Shown here: positions 16,396-52,854 of the stretch, piece by piece
Numbering within the stretch: position 1 is the stretch's first letter
How the letters are laid out: each line of letters begins with the position of its first letter
DNA from: a bacterium 1xD42-67
GTDB taxonomy: Bacteria > Bacillota > Clostridia > Oscillospirales > Oscillospiraceae
Reading direction: 5' to 3'
Length of the DNA stretch: 64,000 nt
Assembly: GCA_003612335.1 (NCBI GenBank)
Contig: RAYO01000005.1
Location: forward strand, 124,001 to 188,000
The notes under the pieces: model-generated
Told to the model about the DNA's origin: nothing
The model's database searches: none
What the model saw: the letters and a program-made list of their open reading frames with translations, nothing else
Made by a program: the position numbers and the translations under genes

Positions 16396-16449
16396 TGTAC
16401 TATAATGTCGGAGAGGCGTCCAGCCCCGCCGGCAAAATATCCACAAAAA

Positions 16450-16622
16450 CAGACAGCGCTCCATCAGCTCCCGCTGATGACAGTCGGCAGGCTGTTCGCC
16501 AGACGACCAGGGCCTGCCCCGCCGGTACAGGAGACCCTTCGGCGGCTCTCCCTTTCGGCATGGCTGGAACGGGGGACCGGCACCCTGACCATGCTTACTG
16601 ATGTAAGCCGCGACCTCTATCT
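16450..16622 (-). ncRNA. Lysine riboswitch (L-box) aptamer
   Basis: Read on the minus strand, the leader begins AGATAGAGGTCGCG. It continues through AGTAAGC, GCCGAAAGGGAGAGCCGCC and GAAGGG, then a GGCAGGCCCTGG arm, GACTGTCATCAGC and GGAGCGCTGTCTG. These match in order the conserved blocks of the Bacillus lysC leader (AGATAGAGGTGCG, GCTGAAAGGGGAGCGTCGCCGAAG, GGCTGTCA, GGAGGGCTATCT). Bound lysine is expected to favour the downstream terminator and so shut off asd, the unknown gene, dapA and dapB. The aptamer starts right at the predicted transcript start. Confidence 0.93.
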
Positions 16623-16629
16623 GTTCGAT

Positions 16630-46619: not shown

Positions 46620-46648
46620 TTGACAAAGGCACGAAACTGTGGTAGAGT
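46620..46648 (+). promoter_or_regulatory. Promoter of the T-box/tyrS operon
   Basis: TTGACA (46620-46625), 17-base spacer, TAGAGT (46643-46648); the T-box leader starts a few bases downstream. Confidence 0.82.
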
Positions 46649-46654
46649 GTGACC

Positions 46655-46917
46655 ACTGCGAAGAAAAGGACGAGTAACACAGCGATATCCTGCACAGAGA
46701 GCCCCCGGTCAGGTGGAACGGGGGAGAGGGGCGCCGTGCGAATACCCCTTGGAGCAGCCGCCCGAACCGCAACGCGCAGTAGGGGACAGGCCGGGCCGCG
46801 CCCGTTACTGCGCAGGAGCTGCAGGCTCCATAAGGTCCGCCCCGTGAGGGCCGGACGAACCAGAGGTGGTACCGCGTCATCACGCCCTCTGTCCGAGTTT
46901 CGGGCAGAGGGCTTTTC
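46655..46917 (+). ncRNA. T-box riboswitch, probably tyrosine (UAC specifier)
   Basis: The leader shows AGGACGAGTAA at the base of Stem I, an AGAGAG block, GGTGGAA, and the specifier-loop region GAATACCCCTTGGAGCA. The T-box proper AACCAGAGGTGGTACCGCG lies at 46859-46877. A terminator follows (46884-46916, GCCCTCTG / CAGAGGGC then TTTT). UAC at 46743-46745 is the best specifier, since tyrS is in the operon; ACC (Thr) one base over is the competing reading. The UGGU of the antiterminator would pair with a tRNA ending ACCA. Uncharged tRNA-Tyr should allow read-through. Confidence 0.92.
46884..46916 (+). terminator. T-box attenuator terminator
   Basis: GCCCTCTGTCCGA / TCGGGCAGAGGGC hairpin followed by TTTTCG, just after the T-box sequence and 18 bases before the transporter start. 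Confidence 0.9.
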
Positions 46918-46934
46918 GTAAGGAGGCGATCCTG

Positions 46935-47795
46935 TTGTCAGCGCGTCAAAGGGGGACGCTGTATGTGTTCCTGGCCGCTGTCTTGTACAGCATCGGAGGG
47001 CTGTGCATCAAGCTGATCCCGTGGGGCGGCATGGCCATCAACGGCGGCCGCACTGCCATCGCTCTGGTGGTCATCGGCCTGTATCTGGCCGTCACCCACC
47101 ACAGGCCCTGGATGAACCTGTGGGTATTGGTGGGGGCGCTGGCCGTCTGCGGCACCAATATCCTCTTCTCCATCGCAAATAAGCTGACCACCGCCGGCAA
47201 CGCCATCGTGCTCCAGTTCACGGCGCCGATCTTCGTGATCTTGTTCTCTGTCCTCTTCTTTGGCAAAAAGCCCAGGAAGCTGGACTTGATCGCCTGCTGT
47301 CTGGTGCTGGGAGGGGTGCTCCTCTTCTTCATCGACAGCCTGTCGGCAGGGGGGATGCTGGGCAATGTGCTGGCCTTACTTTCCGGGGTGTCCTATGCGG
47401 GAGTATTCCTGATGAACGATATGCCTGACAGCGATCCGATCTCCTCTGTCTTCTGGGGGGACGTGATCAGCGCAGTAGTGGGCCTGCCCTTTTTAGGGTA
47501 TGAGACCCAGTTCACCAGGACAGCCCTCACCGCTCTGGTGGCGCTGGGGGTGTTCCAGGTGGCCCTGGCCTACATCCTGATGGTGGAGGGGCTGAAGACC
47601 ACGCCTCCCGTCACTGCCAGCCTGGTGTCGGGGATCGAGCCGGTGCTCAACCCCATCCTGGTGGCGGTGTTCTGCCAAGAGATGATCGGCCGGCTGTCCC
47701 TGGTGGGGGCTATGATCGTGGTGGGCAGCGTGGTGCTGTACAATGCGATCTTGGCCTGGCAGACCGATCCGTCTGAGATAGGGGGGATACGATGA
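46935..47795 (+). CDS. EamA/DMT family transporter under T-box control
   Basis: 286 residues with ten predicted helices in two EamA repeats (first about 5-130, second about 140-275; VTASLVSGIEPVLNPILVAVF is a typical final EamA motif). Start is TTG 46935, with AAGGAGG 9 bases upstream; in-frame codons before it lie in the T-box terminator. Being the first gene after a tyrosine-type T-box and cotranscribed with tyrS, it is a candidate tyrosine or aromatic amino-acid transporter. EamA proteins may import or export, so direction is open. Confidence 0.88.
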   Translation: MSARQRGTLYVFLAAVLYSIGGLCIKLIPWGGMAINGGRTAIALVVIGLYLAVTHHRPWMNLWVLVGALAVCGTNILFSIANKLTTAGNAIVLQFTAPIFVILFSVLFFGKKPRKLDLIACCLVLGGVLLFFIDSLSAGGMLGNVLALLSGVSYAGVFLMNDMPDSDPISSVFWGDVISAVVGLPFLGYETQFTRTALTALVALGVFQVALAYILMVEGLKTTPPVTASLVSGIEPVLNPILVAVFCQEMIGRLSLVGAMIVVGSVVLYNAILAWQTDPSEIGGIR

Positions 47796-48235
47796 ACAGA
47801 TCTCGATCGTTCTGGGACGTTATGGAACTGTGTGATTGGACCTGTGAGGGAGACGACGACAAGGTGCTCAGGCCGGTCATCCAGTATCTAGCACAGCAGG
47901 AGGATGGAAGGATCTTTCAGTTCAACGACCTGATGTCGGAGCTCCTGCATGGGCTGGATACCAAAAAACTGACGGCCCAGTGTAAAGAGGTGGAGCCCCT
48001 TATGAGCGACGATTCCTTCTTGTATTCCCGCTGTGTGGCCCTGATCAATGGGCCCAGCTACTATGAGAAGGCTCGGCAGGGGATGGCAAAGGAGATATGG
48101 AACATGGAATTTGAAGCGCTCCTCTACGTTCCGTCGCGGGCCTGGGCTCTGAAACACGAAAAGCCGGAGGAGGATTATCCCCATACCGCTCCCTTGAGCT
48201 ATGAGACCGGCAGCAACCGGGAACAATGGAAGTAA
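47792..48235 (+). CDS. DUF4240 domain protein
   Basis: 147 residues starting inside the transporter stop (ATGA). The opening FWDVMELCDWTCEGDDDKVLRPVIQYLAQQ is the DUF4240 signature. DUF4240 proteins are small, acidic, found singly or in immunity-type arrays; function unknown. Its place between a T-box transporter and tyrS is unexpected. tyrS follows after 23 bases with no promoter visible. Confidence 0.82.
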   Translation: MNRSRSFWDVMELCDWTCEGDDDKVLRPVIQYLAQQEDGRIFQFNDLMSELLHGLDTKKLTAQCKEVEPLMSDDSFLYSRCVALINGPSYYEKARQGMAKEIWNMEFEALLYVPSRAWALKHEKPEEDYPHTAPLSYETGSNREQWK

Positions 48236-48258
48236 AATGATAAAGGAGAGACAACAAC

Positions 48259-49482
48259 ATGACCTGTTATGAAGAACTGAAGGCCCGTGGGCTTATCGCC
48301 CAGGTGACCAATGAGGAAGAAATTTCCAAGATGATCAACGAGGGGAAGGCGGTATTTTACATCGGCTTCGACCCCACCGCCGACTCCCTCCATGTGGGCC
48401 ACTTCATGGCCCTGTGCCTGATGAAGCGGCTGCAGATGGCGGGCAACCGACCCATCGCCCTTATCGGCGGAGGCACCGGCATGATCGGCGATCCCTCCGG
48501 CCGCACCGACATGCGCTCCATGATGACCGAGGAGACCATCTGCCACAACTGTGACTGCTTCAAAAAGCAGATGGAGCGGTTCATCGAATTCGGCGAGGGC
48601 AAGGCCATGATGATCAACAATGCCGACTGGCTGCTCAAGCTGAACTATGTAGAGGTCCTGCGCGAGGTAGGCGCCTGCTTCTCGGTGAACAACATGCTCC
48701 GGGCAGAGTGCTACAAGCAGCGCATGGAGAAGGGGCTGTCCTTCCTGGAGTTCAACTATATGATCATGCAGTCCTATGACTTCTACTATCTGTTCCAAAA
48801 CTACGGCTGCAATATGCAGTTCGGCGGCGACGACCAGTGGTCCAACATGCTGGGCGGCACGGAGCTCATCCGCCGCAAGCTGGGCAAGGATGCTCACGCT
48901 ATGACCATCACCCTGCTGCTCAACTCCGAGGGCAAGAAGATGGGCAAGACCGCCAAGGGCGCTGTGTGGCTGGACCCCGATAAGACCTCTCCCTACGAGT
49001 TCTACCAGTATTGGCGCAACGTGGGGGACGGAGATGTGCTCAAGTGTCTGCGGATGCTCACCTTCCTGCCTCTGGAGCAGATCGACGAGATGGACAAGTG
49101 GGAGGGCAGCCAGCTGAATACTGCCAAGGAGATCCTGGCCTTTGAGCTGACCAAGCTGGTCCACGGGGAGGACGAGGCCCTCAAGGCCCAGGAGGCCGCC
49201 AAGGCCCTGTTCGTGGGCGGCGGCGACATGACCAATGTCCCAGCCACTCAGCTGACCGCCGAGGACCTGACCGATGGCGCCATCGGTGTGCTGGACCTGA
49301 TGGTCAAGTGTAAGCTGGCCCCGTCCAAGAAGGAGGCCCGCCGTCTGGTCGAACAGGGCGGGGTGGAGGTCAACGGCGAGAAGGTGACTGCTGCTGCGGT
49401 CAGTTACACCGCCGATGACCTCCACGGAGATGGCCTGATGGTCAAAAAGGGCAAAAAAGTGTATCACCGGGCACACATGTGA
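48259..49482 (+). CDS. tyrS: Tyrosyl-tRNA synthetase
   Basis: Class I synthetase, 407 residues. HIGH motif is HVGH at 45-48 in [16 protein letters not shown] motif is KMGKT at 227-231; [11 protein letters not shown] binds tyrosine/ATP. The C-terminal S4 domain (about 340-407) carries [37 protein letters not shown]. Third gene of the T-box operon, explaining the UAC specifier. Confidence 0.97.
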
Positions 49483-49576: not shown

Positions 49577-49605
49577 TTGAAATCTCAGCACGCCTATGTT
49601 ATAAT
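49577..49605 (+). promoter_or_regulatory. Promoter of the SCIFF precursor gene
   Basis: TTGAAA (49577-49582), 17-base spacer, TATAAT (49600-49605), about 50 bases before scfA. Confidence 0.85.
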
Positions 49606-49657
49606 GACTTTCACTATGGCAGAAACTGCTGTAAATGACCTAACAGGAGGAGATATG

Positions 49658-49798
49658 ATGAAACACATCCAGACTCTCAATGGGGCCACCTTGAAGGCCA
49701 GCGCCGCCAAGGGCGGCTGCGGCGAGTGCCAGACCTCTTGCCAGTCCGCCTGCAAGACTTCCTGCACTGTCGCCAACCAGAAGTGCGAGAACAAGTAA
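49658..49798 (+). CDS. scfA: SCIFF six-cysteine precursor peptide
   Basis: 46-residue peptide MKHIQTLNGATLKAS... with Cys at 21, 24, 28, 32, 36 and 43. It matches the almost invariant clostridial SCIFF precursor (six cysteines in forty-five residues), ending CGECQTSCQSACKTSC and a TVANQKC tail. The maturase ScfB joins a Cys sulphur to a Thr alpha carbon (sactipeptide/ranthipeptide class). The second of two adjacent ATGs (49658) has the better 7-base spacing to AGGAGG; 49655 is possible. The mature role is not settled, though ranthipeptides have been tied to quorum sensing. Confidence 0.96.
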   Translation: MKHIQTLNGATLKASAAKGGCGECQTSCQSACKTSCTVANQKCENK

Positions 49799-49810
49799 AC
49801 GATCAGTTGG

Positions 49811-49842
49811 AAAGAGGCAGGTGCAGCCGCGCCTGCCTCTTT
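49811..49842 (+). terminator. Terminator directly after scfA
   Basis: AAAGAGGCAGG / CCTGCCTCTTT stem around a 10-base loop, ending in TTTG. It separates the precursor gene from the three genes before the maturase and probably makes scfA message more abundant. Confidence 0.82.
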
Positions 49843-49863
49843 GCTGTGTTTGGAGGGAGGACC

Positions 49864-50430
49864 GTGGGAAATACGATCGGATCAGATCCACTGACGCCAG
49901 ACTACAAATGCGTTCACATGAGCAACGGCCTGACAGACGTCTTTTTCAATGTCCTTGTCCTCAGCGGTTCGGCACTGGCACAGAGCGTGGAGCAAAAACA
50001 GCTGATCGTCTGGCTTGCTGAACATGACCAGAGCAGGGTGGGCCGGGGCACTGTCGGCTTTGATCTGTGTGACATGCCTTGGGACCCGGCCACCTTTGCG
50101 GAGGACAAGGGATTTTTGATCCAGGCGATCTCGGCGGCCAAAGAGCGGCTGGGCTGGGAAAAGTTGGATTACCAGCCTAACGAGGATATCCTGTTTCCCT
50201 GCCTGGACCTCTTCGCGGAGCTGCTGTCCGGGATGGATGCCTCGAAGATCCAGCCAGAGGCCTTGAAGGAGTGGCTGGCGGCGGCGGAGCCTGACGATCC
50301 CGTCCTGTGCGGCTTTCCCAGGTGCTCGAAGCATCAGATCCTGCTCACGGTCTTCGGCTGCCACATCTGCAACGATCAGGGGGTGGGCCGTTTTGGAAGA
50401 GCTGCTGGCGTACGCCATCCTGCTCTATGA
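49864..50430 (+). CDS. Hypothetical protein inside the SCIFF locus
   Basis: 188 residues from GTG 49864, preceded by GGAGGGAGG. Soluble, unrecognised. It contains NGLTDVFFNVLVLSGSALAQSVEQKQLIVWLAEHDQ, then WDPATFAEDKGFLIQAISAAKERLGW and a Cys-containing FGCHICND stretch. The last 13 codons overlap the next gene in another frame. It is the first of three genes between scfA and scfB; none has a motif of RiPP export, proteolysis or regulation. Confidence 0.6.
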   Translation: MGNTIGSDPLTPDYKCVHMSNGLTDVFFNVLVLSGSALAQSVEQKQLIVWLAEHDQSRVGRGTVGFDLCDMPWDPATFAEDKGFLIQAISAAKERLGWEKLDYQPNEDILFPCLDLFAELLSGMDASKIQPEALKEWLAAAEPDDPVLCGFPRCSKHQILLTVFGCHICNDQGVGRFGRAAGVRHPAL

Positions 50431-50836
50431 GGGGATCGTCACAGAGGAGGAATACCAGGAGCGGCTGCACGACCTGTTTTTGGAGCACCCGGACGACAGG
50501 ACGCTGCTGGACCTGGAGTGTGAGACCGATATCCAGAAAGCGGTCATCTATATCCGAACGCAGGCCGACTACGGCTCTATCGGACTGCACCCGGAGACCT
50601 TCGGGCGGGCCTTGATGGAAAAGCTCAGGGACTACTATACCCGCTGCACGGACCTTCGGCGGTTTGGAAGCAAAATGTATTCCCTGTGGGAGAGCCTTCC
50701 CGGCGATCTCCAAAGTATGGAACCCTTCTGGTCGCTCTGTTATGCGGATGACCCGCTGTCGTGGGGAGATGAGGTGCAGACCCGTTCTCTTTATGAGACG
50801 ATGCTTTCCTATTATGAGGAGGATGTCAAAGGATGA
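50393..50836 (+). CDS. Hypothetical protein inside the SCIFF locus, overlapping start
   Basis: 147 residues from TTG 50393, overlapping the upstream gene by 38 bases, with GGGGTG upstream. Helical and acidic (EELLAYAILLYEGIVTEEEYQERLHDLFLEHPDD). Its stop overlaps the SUKH gene. The large overlap could also mean that the two frames were once one gene joined by a frameshift; no candidate join is obvious. Immunity-like by size and neighbour. Confidence 0.58.
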   Translation: MEELLAYAILLYEGIVTEEEYQERLHDLFLEHPDDRTLLDLECETDIQKAVIYIRTQADYGSIGLHPETFGRALMEKLRDYYTRCTDLRRFGSKMYSLWESLPGDLQSMEPFWSLCYADDPLSWGDEVQTRSLYETMLSYYEEDVKG

Positions 50837-51420
50837 AGCAGATATGGGATGAGATATTGGAGCAGATCAGGCATATCTCCGGTGATATCTACGTCAGCGT
50901 CGATCCACCGGCGGACCCTTCTCAGATCCGTCTGCTGGAGGAGACGGTGGGCGTAACGCTGCCCCAGGACTTTTGCGGCTATCTCTCCGCGCTCAACGGT
51001 CAGAAGGATACAGAGGAGAAGACCAGGGACCGAAACAGAGAGCTCCCTCTGTTGGGATATCACCCCTTCCTGTCCGTTGCCGGTATGATCGAGACCTGGG
51101 ATATGATGAACGAGCTGTTCTCCAAAGAAACGGAGCCGTTGGAGTGGGTGACGGAGGACAAGATCAAGCCCTGCATCTGGCGCCGGCACTGGATACCGTT
51201 CACTGAATATGAGGGGAGCCAGTATCTGATCTTGGACTGTGACCCCGGAAAAAACGGGACCTATGGTCAGGTGTTCCTCTGGTGTTCCGGCATGGACTAT
51301 TCTGAAGTCGTGGCCGATTCATTTGAGGAGTTTTCCAAAGAGATACTGACCAGACTGATAGAAAAAAGATTTGGAGTTTCTGGATTCGGAACGATCGAGT
51401 TCGAGGATCACTACATCTAG
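50833..51420 (+). CDS. SMI1/KNR4 (SUKH) family protein
   Basis: 195 residues with the SUKH core: PPADPSQIRLLEETVGVTLPQDFCGYLSALNGQKD near the N-terminus, then LGYHPFLSVAGMIETWDMM and the WIPFTEYEGSQYLILDCDPGKNGTYGQVFLW block. That last block (W.PF....G...LDLDP..G..GQV) is the clearest family mark. SUKH proteins neutralise diverse nuclease and other toxins. Here it directly precedes scfB, with 21 bases between. Confidence 0.85.
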   Translation: MKQIWDEILEQIRHISGDIYVSVDPPADPSQIRLLEETVGVTLPQDFCGYLSALNGQKDTEEKTRDRNRELPLLGYHPFLSVAGMIETWDMMNELFSKETEPLEWVTEDKIKPCIWRRHWIPFTEYEGSQYLILDCDPGKNGTYGQVFLWCSGMDYSEVVADSFEEFSKEILTRLIEKRFGVSGFGTIEFEDHYI

Positions 51421-51441
51421 CAAGGATAGGAGAAGAAAACT

Positions 51442-52854
51442 ATGATGACCGTACATACCTTTACCGCCCTGGGGCAGTACCTGGCGGCGGACGTAAACAG
51501 CGGGGCGGTCCATGTACTGGACGAGCTGACCTACGACCTGCTCCGCAGGGCAGGGGAGGGCCCACTGGGGGAGGAGCTCCCTCAGGAGTTGGCGGACCAG
51601 CTGTCCCGATATGACCGGGCCAGTCTGGAGGAGGGCTGGCAGGAGCTGCTGGAGCTGCAGAAGGCCGGCCTGCTCTTCACCACCGACGATTACCTGGACC
51701 CAGAGGCCGCCATGGCCCTGCCCAAAGCGGCGGTGGTGAAGGCCCTGTGTCTCCACGTGTCCCACGACTGCAACCTGCGCTGTAGATACTGCTTCGCCTC
51801 CACTGGTGACTTCGGCACCGGCCACCGGACGACCATGGATCTCGAGACCGCCAAGAAGGCCATCGACTGGGTGGTGGCCAAGTCGGGCAAGCGGCGCAAC
51901 ATCGAGATCGATTTCTTCGGCGGTGAGCCGTTGATGGCCTTAGACACGGTGAAGCAGACGGTGAGATACGCCCGGTCGTTGGAAGAGGAGCACGACAAGG
52001 TCTTCCGTTTTACGATCACTACCAATGGGATCCTTCTGGACGACGAGACCATCGACTACATCAACCAAGAGATGTCCAATGTGGTGCTCTCTCTGGACGG
52101 CCGGCAGGAGGTCAATGACAAGATGCGGCCCACCGCTAACGGCAAGGGGAGCTACGACATCATCGTCCCCAAATTCCAAAAGCTGGTGGCCGGACGGGGC
52201 ACCAAAGACTACTATGTCCGGGGCACCTTTACCCGAAACGATTTGGATTTTGCTCAGGACGTGCTCCACATGGGGGATCTGGGATTCCGGCATGTGTCAG
52301 TGGAGCCCTGCAGCGGTCCCTCAGACGACCCCTATGCCATACGCCCAGAGGATCTGAGCAGGGTGGAGGAGGAGTATGAGATGCTGGCCCGGGCTCTGAT
52401 GGAGCGGAACGATATCAACTTTTTCCACTTCAATGTGGATCTCTCTCAAGGGCCCTGCGTCATCAAGCGGCTGCGCGGCTGCGGCGCCGGCTGCGAGTAT
52501 GTGGCCATCACCCCCGATGGGGACATCTACCCCTGCCACCAGTTCGTGGGGAAAGAGGACTACCGTATGGGCAGCGTCCACGACGGCTCCTTCGATATGG
52601 AGATCTCTGGACAGTTCGCTCGTCAGAACATCTATACCCGTCCCGCCTGTCGGGAGTGCTGGGCCCGTTTCTATTGCAGTGGAGGCTGCTCCGCTTCCAA
52701 CCTGCTCGTCCATGGCGACATAACGAAATCTAACGAGACGGCATGCAGTATGGAGCGCAAACGTCTGGAGTGCGCCATCGCGCTCAATGCCATCGCCGCA
52801 GGGATGGGCCAGCAGCTATATACAGGATGTAGTAATACAGGATGTGATCTTTGA
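51442..52854 (+). CDS. scfB: SCIFF maturase, radical SAM SPASM enzyme
   Basis: 470 residues. An N-terminal RiPP-recognition-like region (about 1-90: TFTALGQYLAADVNSGAVHVLDELTYDLL) leads to the radical SAM barrel with CNLRCRYC (Cys110, 114, 117). The C-terminal SPASM domain binds further clusters: CGAGCEYVAITPDGDIYPCHQ, ACRECWARFYCSGGC and ETACSMERKRLEC. This is the thioether-forming enzyme for ScfA. The locus is split: scfA is 1.6 kb upstream beyond a terminator and three accessory genes. AGGATAGGAG lies before the ATG pair. Confidence 0.96.
   Translation: MMTVHTFTALGQYLAADVNSGAVHVLDELTYDLLRRAGEGPLGEELPQELADQLSRYDRASLEEGWQELLELQKAGLLFTTDDYLDPEAAMALPKAAVVKALCLHVSHDCNLRCRYCFASTGDFGTGHRTTMDLETAKKAIDWVVAKSGKRRNIEIDFFGGEPLMALDTVKQTVRYARSLEEEHDKVFRFTITTNGILLDDETIDYINQEMSNVVLSLDGRQEVNDKMRPTANGKGSYDIIVPKFQKLVAGRGTKDYYVRGTFTRNDLDFAQDVLHMGDLGFRHVSVEPCSGPSDDPYAIRPEDLSRVEEEYEMLARALMERNDINFFHFNVDLSQGPCVIKRLRGCGAGCEYVAITPDGDIYPCHQFVGKEDYRMGSVHDGSFDMEISGQFARQNIYTRPACRECWARFYCSGGCSASNLLVHGDITKSNETACSMERKRLECAIALNAIAAGMGQQLYTGCSNTGCDL

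Follow-up and report, generated by a model that had tools for sequence, protein, structure and literature searches.

Why should the gene of a transporter be placed between a leader RNA that senses tRNA and the tyrosyl-tRNA synthetase gene tyrS? This arrangement is found within a 64,000-nucleotide stretch of DNA (hereafter the window; contig RAYO01000005.1, positions 124,001–188,000) from bacterium 1xD42-67, a gut bacterium related to Flintibacter and represented by a 3.56 Mb draft genome. Here, a T-box leader precedes, all on the forward strand, the genes for an EamA transporter of the DMT superfamily (hereafter EamA), a DUF4240 protein and tyrS. As judged by EamA, the nearest named relatives are Flintibacter muris, Pseudoflavonifractor and Lawsonibacter. 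We slightly favour an explanation in which the locus would be a tyrosine operon under transcriptional T-box control, with EamA as uptake partner of the synthetase and DUF4240 as cargo. The leader, its specifier, the gene order and their conservation come directly from the computation; control by uncharged tRNA-Tyr is well supported, and a working switch would be expected by analogy with the T-box family.

A reading of this locus made earlier from the letters only (hereafter the sequence-only reading) had proposed one promoter and one T-box at the head of the operon, and both were recovered. A promoter-like site (TTGACA and TAGAGT separated by 17 nucleotides; 46620–46648), located by consensus scan and possessing identical hexamers in the four relatives compared, is followed by a T-box leader RNA (RF00230; 46652–46892). 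The T-box call was confirmed by covariance model, the match (cmscan, 72.7 bits, E 4.8e-16; E 1.1e-15 in a whole-genome search) spanning the full model (positions 1–219 of 219). Its score lies under the Rfam gathering score of 93 bits, as do those of 7 of the genome's 11 T-boxes, including the leaders of leuA, glyS and thrS. The antiterminator (46861–46891; −10.9 kcal/mol) has the bulge UGGUACC, with UGGU at 46867–46870, and has CCCUCUG in common with the intrinsic terminator (46884–46912; 13 pairs followed by TTTT, −26.3 kcal/mol); the two hairpins are therefore mutually exclusive. A gene for tRNA-Tyr(GUA) is present in the genome, and its ACCA end (A73) pairs with UGGU, in agreement with the antiterminator core originally named.

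Which amino acid the leader reads was judged from the register of its specifier. The specifiers of the other T-boxes of the genome end 5 nucleotides before GGAG or CGAG of the Stem I base; this register reads ACC for thrS, GGC for glyS, CUG for leuA, CUC for acetolactate synthase and UGC before the serine-acetyltransferase-like (cysE-like) gene of the cysS operon. In the leader of the EamA-tyrS operon the same register reads UAC (46743–46745), 5 nucleotides before GGAG, making it the only Tyr T-box among the genome's 11; the Trp T-box leads a gene for an ABC transporter substrate-binding protein. The UAC is one unpaired base away from the lower helix AAGG/CCUU, a position to which the available text on TBDB gives priority, and the same text puts the fraction of UAC among Tyr specifiers at 0.99 (PMC7778990). 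Across 36 T-boxes drawn from 60 loci (L055–L114, the window's own included, repeated leaders dropped), UAC was invariably present, always equally far from the lower stem (recognised by pattern in 33, by eye in 3), and 0–2 bases from GAA; a further set of T-boxes yielded UAC in 31 out of 31 (29 by pattern, 2 by eye).

A leader reading ACC and responding to tRNA-Thr has some points in its favour: two bases of UAC are shared by the overlapping ACC, and the thrS leader of the same genome contains GUACCGC. In the relatives, UAC is followed by A, C or G, so that the frame shifted by one is a Thr codon in every one of them, and conservation alone therefore cannot exclude threonine. However, ACC is displaced by one base from the register that the other T-boxes share, and the U of UAC is invariant (36/36). 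All three tRNA-Thr genes have U73 and the end UCCA, which cannot pair with UGGU; at that place the thrS leader has UGGG, and thrS-like leaders in two relatives have UGGA. Moreover, the downstream synthetase is TyrRS. On the grounds of register, of U73 and of a U that never varies, the ACC specifier was rejected, and we regard a response to tRNA-Thr as highly improbable; the sequence evidence supports UAC, as the sequence-only reading had it, and not ACC.

The order of the three genes, with an overlap and a short gap, and the lack of a further visible promoter agree with what that reading had described. EamA (46935–47795; 286 residues; PF00892, E 4e-33) most likely starts with the TTG at 46935 because of the position of a ribosome-binding site (AAGGAGG, read from the sequence; 46920–46926). 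The DUF4240 gene (47792–48235; 147 residues; PF14024, E 5.4e-19, 69.1 bits at a cut-off of 27) overlaps the EamA stop through ATGA and is separated by 23 nucleotides from tyrS (48259–49482; 407 residues; TIGR00234, 399.3 bits at a cut-off of 113.8). From the leader to tyrS, a consensus scan (weak evidence by nature) revealed no promoter-like site in the forward direction, and the terminator-like sites that it did reveal are weak, with five pairs each. In one relative (G180), the EamA and tyrS matches are only 16 nucleotides apart and an intergenic promoter therefore has no room.

The linkage of T-box, EamA and tyrS was followed in a sample of 200 genomes of the family and, separately, in a collection of named relatives. 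With a threshold of E 1e-30, EamA homologs were detected in 55 of the 200 family genomes, and 30 of the 58 EamA places, all among the better-scoring, were examined as loci. All 17 homologs of at least 65 % identity (the window's included) have a T-box upstream, its UGGU core located 70–104 nucleotides before the matched part, and 16 of them closely precede tyrS; the remaining one (G058) is at a contig end. Of the 13 examined homologs of at most 55 % identity, none has a T-box upstream or is situated beside tyrS. The EamA and tyrS matches are 16–118 nucleotides apart in 13 of the 16 loci, and 371–463 nucleotides apart with one extra gene between them in the other three (the window, G091 and G064). 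T-box-linked EamA thereby spans nine genera, or ten if the contig-end case is counted.

Among the 30 loci of named relatives, two of which (L131 and L141) end before tyrS, EamA is followed by tyrS in all 28 loci that reach it, and 28 out of 30 show a T-box; the pattern search picked up 27 of these, and the variant core of L137 was recognised by eye. This joint recurrence in many relatives strengthens the earlier proposal that the transporter belongs to the operon. On a tree built from 46 loci and comprising 38 tyrS rows (after removal of identical rows and of matches of at most 330 residues; support from the Shimodaira-Hasegawa-like approximate likelihood ratio test only), the EamA label takes 7 changes, 2 of which are forced by well supported branches; out of 500 shuffles, 0 were as low as observed for the label EamA and 2 for the label none. 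From these 7 changes, the linkage appears to be scattered but clustered, having been kept or regained more than once. Clostridiales bacterium CCNA10, with its compact complete genome, has EamA alone accompanying tyrS, just as cysE alone accompanies cysS. Judged by this distribution, EamA appears to be a core, long-standing partner of tyrS.

In the proposed mechanism, the leader would stop transcription at 46884–46912 as long as tRNA-Tyr is charged. Uncharged tRNA-Tyr would pair with UAC in Stem I via its GUA anticodon and with UGGU in the antiterminator via its ACCA end, upon which the polymerase would read through into EamA, DUF4240 and tyrS. During tyrosine shortage, EamA would most likely admit tyrosine, another aromatic amino acid or a precursor, and DUF4240 would be lineage-specific cargo.

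At the protein level, two stretches of the transporter match PF00892 (115 bits at a cut-off of 28.2). Its AlphaFold model (predicted local distance difference test, 85.3; predicted template modelling score, 0.84) lists 11 helices, and with two short, adjacent ones taken as one broken span it displays the ten-helix DMT fold. Comparison with solved structures by phmmer gave chance matches only, so a fold search was used. The best match was PDB entry 5i20 (E 1.9e-8, template modelling (TM) score 0.75, 19 % identity), labelled only 'protein' in the structure table, which we take to be YddG of Starkeya novella; the next matches were a triose-phosphate translocator (TPT), the choline importer LicB and nucleotide-sugar transporters. 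Exporter-type YddG and the importer LicB share this fold, which therefore allows import or export. With YddG, a DMT exporter of aromatic amino acids, the transporter has in common the EamA domains and the ten-helix fold, but it differs by the low identity in the aligned fold, by a score of 37.4 bits for the YddG equivalog NF050091 (cut-off 300) and by its other regulation. The match to TIGR00950 (carboxylate/amino acid/amine transporter) likewise remains under its cut-off (90.1 versus 230.2 bits), and that to the NCBIfam model of RhtA is weak (26.1 bits). Direction and substrate are not readable from sequence; tyrosine or an aromatic compound would be a plausible substrate. The chances that EamA facilitates uptake of tyrosine, another aromatic amino acid or a precursor are about even; that its clade represents a dedicated DMT importer of tyrosine or an aromatic precursor, wired to uncharged tRNA-Tyr, is offered as a tentative proposal.

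The occupants of the slot between Tyr T-box and tyrS were surveyed in the upstream regions of the 30 best-scoring and 60 further tyrS loci (of 178 genomes with tyrS), T-boxes being sought by pattern and not by covariance model. Among the 30 best-scoring loci, 27 are T-box-led: 8 with EamA, 10 with no gene between, 8 with other genes and one with a 783-nucleotide gap without clear gene. The other genes code for Zn-ribbon proteins (four loci), NUDIX, M28 peptidase, a metallo-beta-lactamase fold together with C_GCAxxG_C_C, and RibD_C; Pfam was run on the proteins of six of these eight loci, and the Zn-ribbon genes of the remaining two were assigned by similarity. A T-box core was present in 31 of the 60 further loci within the DNA covered, 26 of these having no gene before tyrS and the remaining five having genes for RibD_C, GNAT, C_GCAxxG_C_C and two Zn-ribbon proteins (one under the Pfam cut-off). 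EamA is the most repeated companion seen in this slot and, unlike its other guests, appears to be both repeated and old.

Several of these observations weigh against a tyrosine-related uptake function. Genes without evident link to tyrosine occupy the slot in relatives, and its place behind the leader alone does therefore not imply a tyrosine function for a gene; most Tyr T-boxes of the further loci (26 of 31) precede tyrS directly. A TyrA-type gene (PF02153) is present in all 17 genomes with T-box-linked EamA (162 of 200 overall), and tyrosine auxotrophy was for this reason rejected as explanation of the transporter. The characterised EamA relatives named in the available text of PMC11005379 are exporters. 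Finally, two named relatives (L127 and L135) retain promoter, terminator, EamA and tyrS without the T-box aptamer, and no UGGU-type Tyr leader was seen among the other T-boxes of their genomes (11 of 11 and 10 of 10 examined); the loss is either a real deletion or an assembly fault. The stretches concerned are L127:604-698 and L135:3910-4001, and the terminator begins 43–44 nucleotides after the first −35 base.

If EamA were a passenger, the T-box serving tyrS alone and the transporter being cargo unrelated to tyrosine, the variety of guests in the slot and its emptiness in 10 of 27 and 26 of 31 loci would be accounted for, as would the unrelated small genes in the other T-box operons of this genome. 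Against this, EamA is the commonest companion and, with identities of at least 65 %, holds its place just before tyrS in the nine genera (ten with the contig-end case), and it persists in the compact CCNA10, where most extra genes have no match; we consider the passenger explanation rather unlikely. Less probable still, though conceivable, is a YddG-like exporter that clears a competitor or toxin (phenylalanine, meta-tyrosine or another analogue) and thereby protects the charging of tRNA-Tyr. The nearest solved fold (5i20), the weak YddG and RhtA matches and the TyrA-type gene in all 17 genomes would suit such an exporter, but the YddG score is far under the 300-bit cut-off, and the choline importer LicB folds alike, so that direction is not given by the fold.

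Next to EamA as putative uptake partner, the operon comprises DUF4240, for which the sequence-only reading had seen a regulated context. This claim is weakened by the distribution of the gene and by the make-up of the other T-box operons of the genome. DUF4240 is present in 5 of the 28 named relatives with complete interval, always between EamA and tyrS, and is missing in 23; in other relatives the interval harbours a cupin (L057), GNAT (L145) or Zn-ribbon-like (L066 and L146; under the Pfam cut-off) gene, or none. Six synthetase T-box operons of the genome (Ile, Val, Ala, Cys, Phe and Tyr) carry small, often lineage-specific genes. Genes for DUF1963, a 251-residue protein and an NTF2-immunity-like protein (under cut-off) precede ileS, three small proteins are encoded ahead of valS, PhzF, DUF3887 and three more ahead of alaS, and a cysE-like gene with two SMI1-like proteins (one under cut-off) ahead of cysS. 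In the Phe operon, a deacetylase gene precedes pheS and a 128-residue protein is encoded between pheS and pheT. Behind the Thr and Gly leaders, thrS and glyS are the first large open frames.

The same operons were compared with those of CCNA10 (12 of 13 T-boxes examined, the weakest, E 6e-5, left out) and Flintibacter muris (11 of 11), a gene counting as without match if nothing at E 1e-6 lay within roughly 5 kb. Flintibacter muris shares many of the additional genes. In CCNA10 the operons are compact, the Ile T-box leading to ileS, Phe to pheS-pheT, Cys to cysE-cysS, Ala to PhzF-DUF3887-alaS and Tyr to EamA-tyrS; its valS is preceded by no more than a weak match to one of the small genes (30 % over 76 residues). 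Because similar small genes fill the other T-box operons of the genome and DUF4240 is rare in relatives, it looks like recent, lineage-specific cargo outside the tyrosine response. PhzF-like and DUF3887 genes precede alaS behind the Ala T-box (GCC by register; loci L233, of this genome, and L247), in CCNA10 too, and represent another shared companion. In total, 13 SMI1_KNR4 matches at E 0.001 were found in the genome, 9 of them over the Pfam cut-off; this domain was detected in only 11 of 101 family genomes searched (14 matches in G086, 8 in G071, none in the same-genus G039).

The operon resembles the tyrS T-box of Bacillus subtilis and other Firmicutes, in which UAC specifier, UGGU antiterminator and terminator are likewise followed by tyrS, and differs from it by the transporter and DUF4240 genes that intervene between leader and tyrS. 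EamA proteins are numerous, and the substrates of most are not known. The same holds for most B. subtilis members according to the available text of PMC11005379. A transporter under a tyrosine T-box has precedents in NhaC and NSS transporters (Wels and others 2008, PMC2494555); the T-box-controlled families given in the available text of that study are ABC, APC, DAACS, LIVCS, MFS, NhaC and NSS, EamA/DMT not being among them. Hypothetical genes under T-boxes of tRNA ligases are also given there for streptococci (Table 2); the companion described here, in contrast, codes for a transporter and is conserved across nine or ten genera. The term 'EamA' does not occur in the main texts of PMC2494555 and PMC7778990 (supplements outside the search), and a literature search of limited coverage, which does not establish absence from print, yielded no report of a T-box combined with EamA. 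Tyrosine T-boxes before tyrS or other transporters were already known, and what the present analysis adds is the conserved T-box-EamA-tyrS linkage. A conserved EamA clade under a single tRNA allows a narrow, testable guess at its substrate in gut Oscillospiraceae; if true, a DMT-superfamily amino acid importer would come under T-box control, adding a family to those given in the available text of PMC2494555. At the same time, the specifier alone cannot annotate every gene behind a T-box in these genomes, and conserved companions (EamA, cysE) need to be separated from recent cargo (DUF4240).

Directly 3' of tyrS no terminator was found in the consensus scan, and transcription may proceed toward scfA. 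This gene for the SCIFF peptide (49657–49797), its identity inferred from the Cys pattern and its neighbour, has a good promoter-like site of its own (49577–49605). The radical-SAM maturase gene scfB (TIGR03974) is located at 51442–52854. Small genes, one of them coding for an SMI1_KNR4 protein (50833–51420), part scfA from scfB here (49657–52854), and the two matches are only 71 nucleotides apart in the relative L134. Elsewhere in the window, a lysine riboswitch (93.2 bits) is located on the reverse strand at 16446–16627.

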